Source of the DNA: Salinisphaera shabanensis E1L3A
GTDB lineage: Bacteria; Pseudomonadota; Gammaproteobacteria; Nevskiales; Salinisphaeraceae
Assembly (NCBI RefSeq): GCF_000215955.2
Contig: NZ_AFNV02000020.1
Location: 1-64,000 of the forward strand
Reading direction: 5' to 3'
DNA: 64,000 bases
The notes under the pieces: generated by a model
Databases searched by the model: none
What the model saw: only the letters and a program-made list of their open reading frames with translations
What the model was told of the DNA's origin: nothing
Shown here: piece by piece, positions 53,552-62,774 of the stretch
How positions within the stretch are numbered: the stretch's first letter is position 1
How the letters are laid out: each line of letters begins with the position of its first letter
Translations under genes and position numbers: made by a program

Positions 53552-53704
53552 AGCGCATGGCGTTTTTTTTATCGGTGAGGCGTCATAAAAGGCTCTGACG
53601 CGCAATGGATTTGAAAGGGTTTCTTGTCACTTTGCACTGCAACAATTATCTTGGAGCAGTCAATCAACCGCGCCGGCATGACGCCGGCGAAACTGGAGGG
53701 ATCA

Positions 53705-54991
53705 ATGGCCGAGAACATGCCACGCCGGGTCGCCATCGTCGGCGGCGCCCGTATTCCGTTCTGCCGCTCGAACACCAAGTACTCGCACCAATCCAATCAG
53801 GACCTGCTCACCGCATCGTTCAAGGCACTGTCGGAAAAATACAAGCTGGCCGGCAAACAGATCGGCGAAGTCGCCGGGGGCGCAGTGCTCAAGCACGCGC
53901 GTGACTTCAACCTGACGCGTGAAGCAGTGCTCGGTACGGATCTCGATCCCCACACGCCGGCGTTCGATGTGCAGCAGGCCTGCGGCACCAGTCTTGAAGC
54001 TACCCTGCTCATCGCCAACAAGATCGCCATGGGCCAGATCGATTGCGGTATCGCCGGCGGTGTGGATACCACCTCCGACGCACCGATCGCGATCAACGAA
54101 GACCTGCGCAAGATTCTGCTCGATGTGAATCGCGCCAAGACGGGCGGCGAGCGCGCCAAACTGCTGGCCAAGCTGCGCCCGCGTCATCTCGTGCCGAACT
54201 TCCCTGGCGTATCCGAGCCGCGTACCGGCCTGTCCATGGGCGAGCACTGTGAGCTCATGGCCAAGGAATGGAAGATTTCGCGCAAGGCACAGGATGAATT
54301 GGCCGTCGCCAGTCACAAGGCCGCCGCCCAGGCTTATGTCGACGGCTTCTACGACGATCTGGTCTTTCCCTACCTCGGCGTCGAACGCGACAACAACATG
54401 CGTCCGGACACCAGCGTCGAACAGTTGGCCAAGCTCAAGCCGGCCTTCGACAAGGAAAACGGCACCCTCACGGCGGCGAACTCCACGCCGCTGACCGATG
54501 GCGCATCGTCGGTCTTCCTGTGTAGCGAGGAATATGCCGAGGCCAATAACCTGCCGGTGCAGGCGTTCTTTACGCCCTACTCGCGCACCGCAGCGGTCGA
54601 TTTCGTCGATGGCGGCGAAGGCCTGCTCATGTCACCGACCTATGCCGTGGCCGATATGCTCGACGCAGCCGGCCTGACCTTGCAGGATTTCGACTTCTAC
54701 GAAATCCACGAGGCATTCGCTGCCCAGGTGTTGTGCACGCTCAAGGCGTGGGAGTCCAAGAAATACTGCAAGGAACGCCTCGGTCGCGACACGCCGTTGG
54801 GTTCGATCGATACGAGCAAGCTCAACGTCAAGGGCTCATCGGTCGCCCTCGGGCATCCGTTTGCAGCCACCGGTACGCGCATCGTGGCCACCCTCGCCAA
54901 GATCCTCGACGAAAACGGCGGTGGCCGGGGCCTGATCTCGATCTGCGCAGCAGGCGGCCAGGGCGTGACCGCGATTCTGGAAAAACCGTAA
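53705..54991 (+). CDS. Acetyl-CoA C-acyltransferase (thiolase)
   Basis: The 428-residue enzyme belongs to the thiolase family. The catalytic Cys is in VQQACGTSLEA near residue 92. The His is in FYEIHEAFAAQ near 340, and the C-terminal GHPFAATGTR and CAAGGQG motifs follow (second Cys). It cleaves or forms beta-ketoacyl-CoA. It resembles FadI-type or acetyl-CoA C-acetyltransferase enzymes, which sequence alone does not separate. GGAGG lies eight bases before the ATG. It is transcribed divergently from groES. Confidence 0.9.
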   Translation: MAENMPRRVAIVGGARIPFCRSNTKYSHQSNQDLLTASFKALSEKYKLAGKQIGEVAGGAVLKHARDFNLTREAVLGTDLDPHTPAFDVQQACGTSLEATLLIANKIAMGQIDCGIAGGVDTTSDAPIAINEDLRKILLDVNRAKTGGERAKLLAKLRPRHLVPNFPGVSEPRTGLSMGEHCELMAKEWKISRKAQDELAVASHKAAAQAYVDGFYDDLVFPYLGVERDNNMRPDTSVEQLAKLKPAFDKENGTLTAANSTPLTDGASSVFLCSEEYAEANNLPVQAFFTPYSRTAAVDFVDGGEGLLMSPTYAVADMLDAAGLTLQDFDFYEIHEAFAAQVLCTLKAWESKKYCKERLGRDTPLGSIDTSKLNVKGSSVALGHPFAATGTRIVATLAKILDENGGGRGLISICAAGGQGVTAILEKP

Positions 54992-55036
54992 CGCCGTTCA
55001 ACGTTAGAAATAGCGCTTTCAGAGCGCTCAGAGGCT

Positions 55037-55068
55037 AAAAAAGACGGGCGTTATCGCCCGTCTTTTTT
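55037..55068 (+). terminator. Terminator after the thiolase gene
   Basis: AAAAAAGACGGGCG and CGCCCGTCTTTTTT form a perfect 14-bp stem with loop TTAT. It can act in both directions. Confidence 0.95.
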
Positions 55069-55254
55069 TATGCGTGCCAATCGCTTGTCCTAGCCGAATG
55101 GCTACAAGACAGCGCGCCGAGAAAAGTGGCAGGATTGACCGCCGGTGCCGATCCAGGGAGAACATAAGTCGGCACGAATAGTGCAAGGCTGACATAGCGC
55201 GAACTCAGGCGTCCTGTGGCGGCCATCAATCGGCGACACGAACAAGGGGGAAGC

Positions 55255-55308
55255 ATGGAAAACAAGTACGCGATCATCGAATTTATCGGGCAAGCACCAC
55301 GGCCATGA
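55255..55308 (+). CDS. 17-residue ORF overlapping the NSS transporter start
   Basis: The frame ATG GAA AAC ... CCA TGA encodes MENKYAIIEFIGQAPRP. It has a strong ribosome site (AAGGGGG, about four bases before the ATG), which the transporter itself lacks. Its TGA overlaps the transporter ATG (ATGA), the classic arrangement for translational coupling. It is not a recognised MetS-type small subunit, which in known systems is longer and downstream. It may be a leader that drives transporter translation. Confidence 0.45.
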   Translation: MENKYAIIEFIGQAPRP

Positions 55309-56642
55309 GTGTGGCGCGCGAACATTGGGGCAGCCGGCTGGGCTTCATCATGGCGTCGGCCGGCTCGGCGGTCGGGCTCGGCAATGTCTGGAAATTTCCG
55401 TATATGGCCGGCGAGAACGGCGGTGGCGCATTCCTGATCATCTATCTGGGTTGCGTCGTGTTTTTCGGCCTATCTCTGGTAATCGCCGAGCTCCTTATCG
55501 GGCGCATGGCCCAGAGCAACCCGGTCGGCGCCTTTCGCACGCTCGGCGGGCGCGGCTGGCCCGCGGTCGGCGCCATGGGCGTGCTGACCGCTTTCATCAT
55601 CCTGTCGTTTTATATCGTCGTCGCCGGCTGGACGCTGGCTTATATCCTGTTCATGGGCGAAAACACCTTCGGCGGCGTCGACATCGAACAGAGCACGAAG
55701 ATCTTCACCAGCTTTATCGCTTCACCGGTACAACCGCTGGTCTATGCCGCGATCTTTACCGTGTTGATGGTCGGCGTAGTGCTCGGCGGCGTCGCCTCCG
55801 GTATCGAGCGCGCATCCAAATGGCTGATGCCGTTGCTTTTCGTCCTGCTGATCGTGCTCGCGATTCGCGCGGTGACCCTGCCGGGCGCCGGTGAAGGCGT
55901 GGACTTCTATCTGATGCCTGACTGGAGTCGGGTGACCGCTAGCACCTGGGGCGGCGCGATCAGCCAGGCATTCTTTTCCCTGTCGCTCGGCATGGGGGCC
56001 ATGCTGACCTACGGCTCTTATATGTCGCGTGAACAGAACCTGCCGCGCGACGCATCGCTGGTCGTGGGCCTGGATACCCTGGTCGCCCTGCTCGCCGGGC
56101 TTGTGATCCTGCCGGCGGTTTTTTCGGCGGGCATGGAACCCAGTGCTGGCGCCGGGCTGACCTTCATGACCCTACCGACGGTATTCGCGCAAATGCCGGC
56201 CGGCGAGATATTCGGACTGGCATTCTTCATTCTGCTGGCGATCGCCGCGTTGACCTCGGCCGTGTCGCTGCTTGAAGTGGTGGTGAGTTATCTGGTCGAT
56301 GACAAGGGTTTGTCCCGCTTCGCCGCGGCCGCAGGGACGGGCATCGTGATCTTCATCATAGCCATCCCGATTTCCCTGTCGCAGGGCATCTGGAAAGAAA
56401 ACACCATTGCCGGCATGACCTTCCTGGACTTCGCCGATTTCGTAACCGCGCACGTCATGATGCCGGTCGGCGGGTTGCTGATCGCGCTGTTCGTCGGCTG
56501 GCGGTTGGGGCCGCGTGCGGTCGAGGCGTTGAAATCGCATCCGGAACAGCACTTGCCGCTTGCGGGCTTGTGGCTATTTGTCCTGCGCTTCCTGGCGCCG
56601 GCGGGGATTGCCTGGATTCTGGTTCAGGGTTTTTTTGAATAA
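55305..56642 (+). CDS. Neurotransmitter:sodium symporter (NSS) family amino-acid transporter
   Basis: The 445-residue integral membrane protein opens with the NSS signature: SRLGFIMASAGSAVGLGNVWKFPYMAGENGGGAFL, split over residues 10-44, forming TM1 and the Na+/substrate site. Ten or more further helices follow, with LEVVVSYLVDDK near 325. It probably imports a hydrophobic or neutral amino acid with Na+. It has no good ribosome site of its own and overlaps the 17-codon ORF. Confidence 0.92.
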   Translation: MSVAREHWGSRLGFIMASAGSAVGLGNVWKFPYMAGENGGGAFLIIYLGCVVFFGLSLVIAELLIGRMAQSNPVGAFRTLGGRGWPAVGAMGVLTAFIILSFYIVVAGWTLAYILFMGENTFGGVDIEQSTKIFTSFIASPVQPLVYAAIFTVLMVGVVLGGVASGIERASKWLMPLLFVLLIVLAIRAVTLPGAGEGVDFYLMPDWSRVTASTWGGAISQAFFSLSLGMGAMLTYGSYMSREQNLPRDASLVVGLDTLVALLAGLVILPAVFSAGMEPSAGAGLTFMTLPTVFAQMPAGEIFGLAFFILLAIAALTSAVSLLEVVVSYLVDDKGLSRFAAAAGTGIVIFIIAIPISLSQGIWKENTIAGMTFLDFADFVTAHVMMPVGGLLIALFVGWRLGPRAVEALKSHPEQHLPLAGLWLFVLRFLAPAGIAWILVQGFFE

Positions 56643-56687
56643 TGTCATCCGGGCCCGTAAACGCGGCCCACTCAGGGGGATTTGATC

Positions 56688-58028
56688 ATGGAAACACTTA
56701 CTAACGCGCTGAGCACGCTCAGCGGCTGGGTCTGGGGCCCGGTCATGCTGATACTGCTGCTGGGTACCGGCATTTATTTGACCGTCGGTTTGCGCGGTAT
56801 ACCGCAACGCAAACTGTTCTACGGTTTTTCGATGATGTTCGCCGGGCGTAAACAGACCACGGAGCCCGGCGACATCACACCTTTCCAGGCCCTGGCCACG
56901 GCTCTGGCGGCAACGGTCGGTACCGGCAACATTGCCGGTGTGGCCACCGCCATCCATTTGGGTGGGCCCGGTGCGATCTTCTGGATGTGGGTGACGGCCA
57001 TCGTGGGCATGGCCACCAAGTACGGCGAAGCCGTGCTGGCAGTGAAGTATCGCGAAACCAATGCCGAGGGCGCCTACGTGGGTGGCCCGATGTACTACAT
57101 CCGCAACGGACTCGGCACGAACTGGAAATGGTTGGCCTTCGCCTTTGCCCTGTTCGCGACGATCGCGGCGTTCGGTATCGGCAATACCGTGCAATCCAAC
57201 TCGGTTTCGCAGGTGTTCGATGAAACCCTGTCCATCCCGCGCTGGCTGACGGGTCTGGTCATGGCTGCCGGCGTGTTCGCCGTGATCATCGGCGGCGTGC
57301 AACGCCTGGCGAGTGTCACCGACAAGCTTGTGCCGGTGATGGCGATCATCTACGTGATCGGCGCCGCCGTCGTTCTTGTGCTTAATGCCGGCGAAGTGCC
57401 GGGGGCAATCGCACTGATCTTTTCCGATGCCTTTACCGGCACCGCGGCCACCGGCGGCTTTGCTGGCGCGGGCATCATCATGGCGATCCGTTTCGGCGTG
57501 GCGCGCGGCATCTTCTCCAACGAAGCGGGTCTGGGTAGTGCACCGATCGCCCATGCGGCCGCACGCACCGACAGCCCGGTCCGCCAGGGCGTGGTCGCGA
57601 TGCTGGGTACGTTCATCGATACCATCATCGTTTGCACCATGACAGCGCTGGTGATCATCTCTACCGGCGCCTGGTCTTCCGGCACGACGGGCGCGCAGCT
57701 GTCGGCCGAAGCCTTCACCACCGGCATGCCCGGCCCAGGCGGCTGGATCGTGAGCTTCGGGCTGGTGATCTTCGCGTTCTCGACCATGCTCGCCTGGAGC
57801 TACTACGGCGAACGCACTGCCGAGTACCTGTTCGGCTCACGTATCATCACGCCGTACCGCCTGCTGTGGGTCGTCGCCGTGTTCGTGGGCGCCATCGCGC
57901 AGCTGGACTTCGTCTGGCTCGTGGCCGACGTCATGAACGCCCTGATGGCGATTCCGAACCTCATCGCGCTGGTTCTGCTCGCACCGGTCGTGTTCAAGCT
58001 CACACGCGCGTATTTCGATAAAACGTAA
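56688..58028 (+). CDS. Alanine/glycine:cation symporter (AGCS family)
   Basis: The 446-residue membrane protein shows the AGCS patterns TPFQALATALAATVGTGNIAGVATAI near 64-90, GGPGAIFWMWVTAIVGMATKY and the TM8 region FSNEAGLGSAPIAHAAA near 280. It imports alanine or glycine with Na+ or H+. AGGGGG lies eight bases before the ATG at 56688; a TTG two codons upstream is less likely. It follows the NSS transporter by 45 bases and is likely in one transcript with it. Confidence 0.92.
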   Translation: METLTNALSTLSGWVWGPVMLILLLGTGIYLTVGLRGIPQRKLFYGFSMMFAGRKQTTEPGDITPFQALATALAATVGTGNIAGVATAIHLGGPGAIFWMWVTAIVGMATKYGEAVLAVKYRETNAEGAYVGGPMYYIRNGLGTNWKWLAFAFALFATIAAFGIGNTVQSNSVSQVFDETLSIPRWLTGLVMAAGVFAVIIGGVQRLASVTDKLVPVMAIIYVIGAAVVLVLNAGEVPGAIALIFSDAFTGTAATGGFAGAGIIMAIRFGVARGIFSNEAGLGSAPIAHAAARTDSPVRQGVVAMLGTFIDTIIVCTMTALVIISTGAWSSGTTGAQLSAEAFTTGMPGPGGWIVSFGLVIFAFSTMLAWSYYGERTAEYLFGSRIITPYRLLWVVAVFVGAIAQLDFVWLVADVMNALMAIPNLIALVLLAPVVFKLTRAYFDKT

Positions 58029-62585: not shown

Positions 62586-62774
62586 GCCGGCACTCCTGCG
62601 GTGTTCGACGACCTCCCGGTTCCCCTTGAGCCTAAGTACCTAAACCGGGGTGGGAAACGTCGCAGGTGAGTACGCCCGCCTTGCTGCGGGAAACCTAATG
62701 CGGCGTGGAACGCCCCACTTGAGCATTCGTCTCAAGGATAGTGGACGGTCGACGGCACAGGCGGGAGTGTCGGC
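62586..62774 (+). ncRNA. ssrS: 6S RNA
   Basis: 6S RNA binds sigma-70 RNA polymerase and lowers promoter use in stationary phase. A closing stem pairs GCCGGCACTCCTGC (62586-62599) with GCGGGAGTGTCGGC (62761-62774). The 189-base length matches E. coli 6S (184). Internal parts include CCCCTTGAGCC near the 5' side and GTCTCAAGGATAGTGGACGG near the 3' side, enclosing a bubble typical of the family. A T-rich stretch follows. The position between zapA and the 5-FCL gene is diagnostic. Confidence 0.88.

Follow-up and report, generated by a model that had tools for sequence, protein, structure and literature searches.

Background

In Escherichia coli, where two frames meet at an AUGA or UAAUG junction and the downstream gene has no Shine-Dalgarno (SD) sequence, loss of the upstream ORF start abolished downstream reading, and the downstream frame at such junctions was read entirely by ribosomes that had first translated the upstream one, according to the available part of the report (PMC9955659). 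In the UAAUG tests described there, upstream ORFs of three to five codons were insufficient and those of six and seven were permissive (PMC9955659). It has been proposed, in the accessible portion of a 2025 review, that a short ORF possibly just delivers ribosomes (PMC12548453). For PPE2 of Mycobacterium tuberculosis, mutation of the SD or the start codon of an upstream ORF (uORF) cuts expression, and the excerpted text attributes this mostly to termination-reinitiation (PMC11260477).

Here we describe a locus of Salinisphaera shabanensis E1L3A lying in a window of 64,000 nucleotides, the whole stretch of DNA that was analysed (contig NZ_AFNV02000020.1). An initial annotation, made from the sequence alone, had pointed to a 17-codon ORF with a strong ribosome site overlapping an NSS transporter gene, and had offered two readings of this arrangement, a leader for translational control or a micro-subunit of the transporter.

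Results and discussion

A short frame with its own ribosome site

The features of the locus are collected in Table 1. The overlapping 17-codon ORF and its strong ribosome site were both confirmed: the frame opens with an ATG at 55255, closes with a TGA at 55306-55308 and encodes MENKYAIIEFIGQAPRP in the window sequence, its SD, two bases 5' of the ATG, forms a duplex of -10.5 kcal/mol with the anti-SD, and the TGA and the transporter ATG (55305) overlap in an ATGA. The small frame is also, as had been claimed, the owner of the only good SD, the best value for the region upstream of the transporter ATG being just -2.5, where the 1% quantile among 3000 random 18-mers of the window, used as the reference for these energies, is -7.2. 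With an SD of its own, a stop/start overlap and a downstream gene without an efficient SD, the frame has the make-up of a translationally coupled uORF of the uof or uPPE2 kind. An antisense frame of 85 codons (window positions 55068-55325, reverse strand) spans the leader; nothing marks it as a gene.

Table 1. Features of the NSS transporter locus and their positions in the window
Feature	Position	Strand	Evidence and remarks
Terminator-like hairpin and T run	55046..55068 (stem 55046-55063)	+	3' of upstream thiolase gene; separates thiolase from leader
Sigma-54-type (-24/-12) promoter GGCACG-AATA-GTGC-A, predicted	55171..55185	+	GGCACG-N4-GTGC invariant in 7/7 uORF loci
Predicted 5' untranslated leader	55196..55254	+	From promoter geometry, putative start ~12 nt after the -12 GC
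uORF Shine-Dalgarno (AAGGGGGAA)	55244..55252	+	-10.5 kcal/mol; -7.4 to -10.5 across 7 uORF loci
17-codon leader uORF, MENKYAIIEFIGQAPRP-stop	55255..55308	+	Layout kept, peptide not
ATGA overlap, uORF stop/transporter start	55305..55308	+	16-17-codon ATG frame ending there in 9/17 genus NSS loci (7 with SD, 2 without)
NSS (SNF) transporter (445 aa) lacking a good SD	55305..56642	+	Pfam PF00209 E 1.1e-59; NCBIfam NF037979; closest solved chain 4us3 E 5.2e-114
AGCS sodium:alanine symporter, likely next gene of the operon	56688..58028	+	TIGR00835 E 1.7e-154; CAGGGGG before ATG (by eye)

The start of the transporter

The transporter scores 203 bits with PF00209 against a cut-off of 27, and its residues 1-440 align with residues 1-465 of the LeuT chain (2a65), while 4us3 covers residues 3-443 of the query; since the homology with LeuT runs from residue 1, position 55305 is a sensible start. 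No in-frame ATG, GTG or TTG was found in the window upstream of this ATG before the stop at -126. An alternative transporter start with an SD of its own, which would speak against a leader, is therefore not present in the window, but two of the related loci described below (L005 and L006) carry a TTG in the transporter frame at -51, adjoining the same SD.

Such a TTG could mean that the uORF region encodes an N-terminal extension of the transporter, reached either from an in-frame non-ATG start or by a -1 slip at the stop, and a minor uORF-PPE2 fusion arising through stop suppression at the AUGA overlap is mentioned in the available text on that gene (PMC11260477). However, the other five uORF loci have no in-frame upstream NTG (stops at -126, -42, -42, -75 and -87), no slippery sequence common to the loci was seen by eye before the TGA, and the homology of the transporter begins at its ATG, so that we regard an extended transporter as extremely unlikely. 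In a locus from another genus of the family (L027 in genome G015, reverse strand), the NSS gene has no in-frame upstream ATG, GTG or TTG before the conserved region; an ATT preceded by a GGGGGA site stands nine bases before that region, and an ATT start is possible there.

Predicted promoter and neighbouring genes

All seven uORF leaders share the pattern GGCACG-N4-GTGC-W, and in the five lineages this site is 66-86 nt upstream of the uORF. Sigma-54 promoters follow the consensus TGGCACG-N4-TTGC-W with a GG-N10-GC core; the leader site has this core and differs from the consensus at -26 and, with G in place of T, at -15. Its GG-N10-GC spacing and its asymmetric flanks fit a putative sigma-54 -24/-12 site. 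The RpoN DNA-binding domain is present in the genome (E 2.5e-65), and no sigma-70-like site satisfying the scan criteria was found in 54980-55420.

The leader pattern is not in excess in its own genome, where it occurs 7 times as compared with 10 for a reversed-pattern control. Of its six other sites, two precede genes that are typical sigma-54 targets, a P-II gene at a distance of 73 nt (PF00543, E 3e-32; L141 on C34) and a pilin gene at 57 nt (PF00114, E 1.9e-21; L139 on C28); behind the remaining four sites no recognised sigma-54 target was found in this genome. The sites before the P-II and pilin genes suggest that sigma-54 promoters of S. shabanensis may accept GTGC as a -12 element. The consensus itself was found at 5 sites in the genome vs 1 in the control; a purine/cytosine-type permease and an EF-hand protein were identified among the genes behind these sites, and no textbook target was among them.

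No Rfam family was detected in the leader at the gathering threshold; elsewhere in the window a 6S RNA was found (62590-62771, forward strand, RF00013, 75.3 bits). The order thiolase-NSS-AGCS is kept in all seven uORF loci, the AGCS gene of L002 being cut by the contig end. Within this stretch (window positions 53624-58028) the NSS protein evolves much faster than its neighbours, with identities of 61-64% in L005-L007 vs 91-94% for the thiolase and AGCS.

Layout across the genus and wider relatives

A first search covered 61 genomes, of which 49 had a match, and the best 30 loci were taken; in the genus set the transporter was found at E <= 1e-100 in 13 of 14 genomes, giving 17 loci. The full layout, comprising the SD, an ATG, 16-17 codons and ATGA, is present in 7 of these 17 NSS loci, representing five distinct lineages with uORFs of 17, 17, 16, 16 and 16 codons, and the length difference of 3 nt preserves the frame. 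Across the seven, SD energies are -7.4 to -10.5 for the uORF and -1.7 to -5.0 for the transporter. Two further loci (L028 and L029, from G005 and G007) carry the 17-codon ATG frame with its ATGA end and lack the SD, and the transporter's own SD there is weak (-5.0 and -6.3). The layout is missing from the other eight genus loci. Four are NSS2 copies, in which an SD (-5.1 to -6.9) stands directly before the transporter; the other four, the NSS1 copies, lack both SD and uORF (SD energy -1.5 to -3.6). Conservation of the frame in relatives, on which the initial annotation had made its proposal depend, is therefore found in part: the frame is kept in seven loci, but eight of 17 lack the layout and two have the frame without its SD.

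A tandem NSS pair lies between the thiolase and AGCS genes in four genomes of the genus (L008, L009, L011, L012 and L032-L035), the first copy being the one without SD and uORF. The protein tree (midpoint root, four open forks) places uORF loci in both halves of the genus. This placement fits, without proving, the view that the uORF layout may be an old feature which was lost in the lines with tandem copies.

Orthologues with a direct start have an SD of their own at -5.1 or below in 19 of 20 cases, and an ATG uORF ending near the start in none of the 20. In each of the seven uORF loci, opening takes less energy at the uORF site than at the transporter site. As compared with the direct-start orthologues, the transporter site of the uORF loci has a higher opening energy (p 0.008) and differs in its SD (p 0.001), both values being uncorrected and drawn from 5 vs 20 related rows. 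This count excludes L003 and L006, almost duplicates of L002 and L005 respectively, and L027, which has no NTG start; nor does it include L028, L029 or any of the four NSS1 copies.

Among 75 wider NSS loci (L041-L115, taken from the top 80 of 549), none has an overlapping ATG uORF with an SD of -6 or below, and some overlapping ATG frame is present in 10, three from Halomonas included. In these three (L091, L099 and L100) a 16-codon ATG frame ending in ATGA lies upstream of the NSS gene with a weak SD (-5.1 to -5.8). They were not counted as the same layout, because in the other four of the 7 Halomonas loci the frame is broken or the ATG is absent. Some stretches of the leader DNA are alike even among Halomonas loci with a broken frame, a hint of an element acting at the RNA level.

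Could the frame be there by chance, with the transporter using its own AUG without an SD and the uORF being meaningless? The NSS1 copies, in the same genus, do stand without SD and uORF, a protein beginning with Met-Ser or Met-Thr already yields ATGA, and the layout is absent from 8 of the 17 loci. Against this, when each of the seven leaders was subjected to 20,000 dinucleotide shuffles, a uORF defined by an ATG, 8-40 codons, an SD of -7 or below and an end in ATGA arose in only 0.7-5.2% of the shuffled sequences, and one of 16-17 codons in 0.04-0.38%. Multiplying the first of these chances over one row per lineage gives ~1e-8, a figure to be read as a rough guide only because the sequences share ancestry. 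Moreover, the strong SD is retained while the codons drift, and a chance frame is in our view unlikely.

A scan with loose criteria over 444 kb of the S. shabanensis genome, in which 316 genes were called crudely from ORFs of 150 codons or more, gave four raw matches: the window locus, two at internal start codons (+273 and +216) and one with a 38-codon upstream frame that was taken, by eye, to be the end of an ordinary gene. By our own reading, and with gene calling as crude as this, the window locus is the sole clean leader among the four.

Drift of the encoded peptide

The uORF peptide of the window has no constant counterpart in the related loci, which encode MKDSQTMTRFISG[C/G]IQP (G003 and G006), MHEQASILFIGRAVHA (G008), MHNGIRRHDAAGTGRS (G011 and G012) and MIDHPIGQNTAAERTR (G004). 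Over the ten pairs of the five lineages, uORF interiors are 0.53-0.60 identical vs 0.52-0.55 for shuffled sequence and 5' leaders 0.50-0.68 vs 0.55-0.62, and codons 2-21 of the transporter reach 0.73-0.92. The transporters of the window and L002 (G006) are 89% identical, with codon-position identities of 0.91/0.96/0.64; their uORFs share 29 of 54 bases, with codon-position identities of 0.5/0.5/0.4, and, counting start and stop, 5 of 18 peptide positions. Near-identical uORF pairs are little informative, L002 and L003 differing at 1 of 54 bases and L005 and L006 at 0 of 51. When uORF interiors are compared ungapped or with one gap, identity is 0.46-0.53 among the three closest lineages and 0.30-0.40 in the remaining pairs; because of this residual similarity the three are not fully independent, and some apparent common ancestry still shows in their uORFs. 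The check on codon conservation suggested with the initial annotation thus has two sides: 7 of the 17 loci retain the SD, the start, the length and the overlap of stop and start, but the 17 codons themselves drift.

This drift bears on the proposal that the 17-residue peptide is a micro-subunit, a functional partner of the transporter as MetS is of MetPS. A likely translated frame does adjoin the NSS gene, and AIIEFIGQA of the window resembles SILFIGRA of L004. Yet the window and L002 peptides share so few positions despite their closely similar transporters, and over the five lineages peptide identity is near the shuffled level. No run with the length and hydrophobicity of a membrane helix was seen by eye, charged residues occurring throughout. 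NF033493, the model of MetS, the small subunit of NSS transporters, had 0 matches in the S. shabanensis genome at E <= 1; as a control, the same model gave matches in 7 of 14 genomes, above the cut-off in 3. The micro-subunit is thus left without support, and we hold it to be highly improbable.

A second possibility is a sensing leader, in which codon-specific ribosome stalling or an arrest peptide within the uORF would switch the transporter. Regulatory leader peptides are similar in position and length, and the Pro-stop ends of three of the seven uORFs (L001, L002 and L003) could slow termination. However, no codon run or arrest motif was seen to be kept across the five lineages, and a terminator is impossible between overlapping frames, the sole forward-strand terminator-like site in 54980-55420 belonging to the upstream gene. 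A sensing role is accordingly considered very unlikely. As the uORF peptide is not conserved, the evidence goes against a micro-subunit or an arrest peptide and in favour of a leader for translational coupling.

A possible coupling mechanism

In the reading that we consider likely, the 17-codon frame serves as a leader for translational coupling, and the peptide it encodes is immaterial. Termination-reinitiation of this kind is inferred from the layout and the absent transporter SD, taken together with the junction experiments of others and the anatomy of PPE2. Transcription probably starts at the predicted sigma-54 promoter, ~60 nt upstream of the uORF. Ribosomes would then load on the strong uORF SD, read 16-17 codons, terminate at the UGA and re-initiate on the overlapping AUG of the NSS transporter; the transporter start would itself recruit ribosomes poorly, and the ribosome site of the uORF would act as the entry gate. 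Since the NSS1 copies have neither SD nor uORF, a missing SD alone is no proof of coupling. Additionally, in overlapping gene pairs of E. coli, removal of the internal SD lowered or abolished re-initiation in four of five cases, as given in the available part of that study, and coupling without an SD could therefore be inefficient (PMC6728339).

A conserved hairpin at the start codon, pairing AUGA with the UCAU of the FIMA codons in a consensus fold of 5 sequences, was considered and dropped, because its pairing is not kept among the loci and the partner lies in coding sequence. The probability that the U of the AUG is paired varies from 0.09 to 0.95 among the seven uORF loci.

Of the two readings offered at the outset, a leader for translational control is the one that the comparison favours, with SD, start, length and overlap kept in five lineages while the peptide drifts. 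More tentatively, and as a possibility that we think rather doubtful in its full extent, a sigma-54-controlled amino-acid transporter of Salinisphaera might be switched at a peptide-free ribosome gate, where selection would hold the strong SD, the 16-17 codons and the AUGA and leave the codons free, the gate being the place where an sRNA or an RNA-binding protein tunes uptake.

The locus is of wider interest as a clean natural candidate for a leader in which evolution has set the act of translation apart from its peptide product. It provides a signature, consisting of an SD, an ATG, a narrow length, ATGA and no codon constraint, for a genome-wide search of ribosome-delivery leaders, which searches for conserved small proteins would miss.

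Comparison with known systems

MetS is likewise a small frame beside an NSS gene; it lies, however, downstream of that gene and has a family signature, which is absent from the S. shabanensis genome. No literature on a leader peptide in Salinisphaera and, among the matches listed, no report of translational coupling of a sodium symporter was found, the search covering few subscription journals. The literature on MetPS and NSS small subunits within the same coverage, judged by title and abstract start, has nothing on such a leader. The arrangement had been expected to be new, which goes too far: AUGA-coupled uORFs before genes without an SD are known, as the available parts of one report (PMC11260477) and of related ones (PMC8395346, PMC12548453) make clear. 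The kind is thus known, and within the literature covered its NSS member, the conservation pattern and the gene are undescribed.

The comparisons that follow draw on the accessible portions of the papers cited. Termination-reinitiation of overlapping genes has in common with the Salinisphaera locus the stop/start overlap and the re-initiation that we propose; those cases mostly join two real proteins, whereas here the upstream peptide is free to vary (PMC6728339, PMC9955659, PMC12548453). The uPPE2-PPE2 pair of M. tuberculosis similarly consists of an SD-led uORF, an AUGA overlap and a gene without an SD, but its uORF is under a B12 riboswitch, while no Rfam family was detected in the Salinisphaera leader, and phylum and gene differ (PMC11260477). 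In uof-pqsR of Pseudomonas, with the sRNA PhrS (PMC8395346), and uof-fur of E. coli, with RyhB (PMC11550727), a gene is likewise tied to a short upstream frame, which there is the control point; for both the sRNAs are known, and the gene functions differ from that of an NSS transporter. Rare codons of the uof frame are said to matter (PMC11550727), in contrast to the drifting codons of the Salinisphaera uORF.

The synthetic bicistronic design BCD2 has a second SD inside its leader, whereas the region before the Salinisphaera transporter ATG is as weak as given above; it otherwise consists likewise of an SD1, a 17-residue leader peptide and a coupled second cistron (PMC5995908). Read as a leader, the S. 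shabanensis frame would argue against a new NSS subunit and would mirror, in a natural genome, the 17-residue leader of the bicistronic design.
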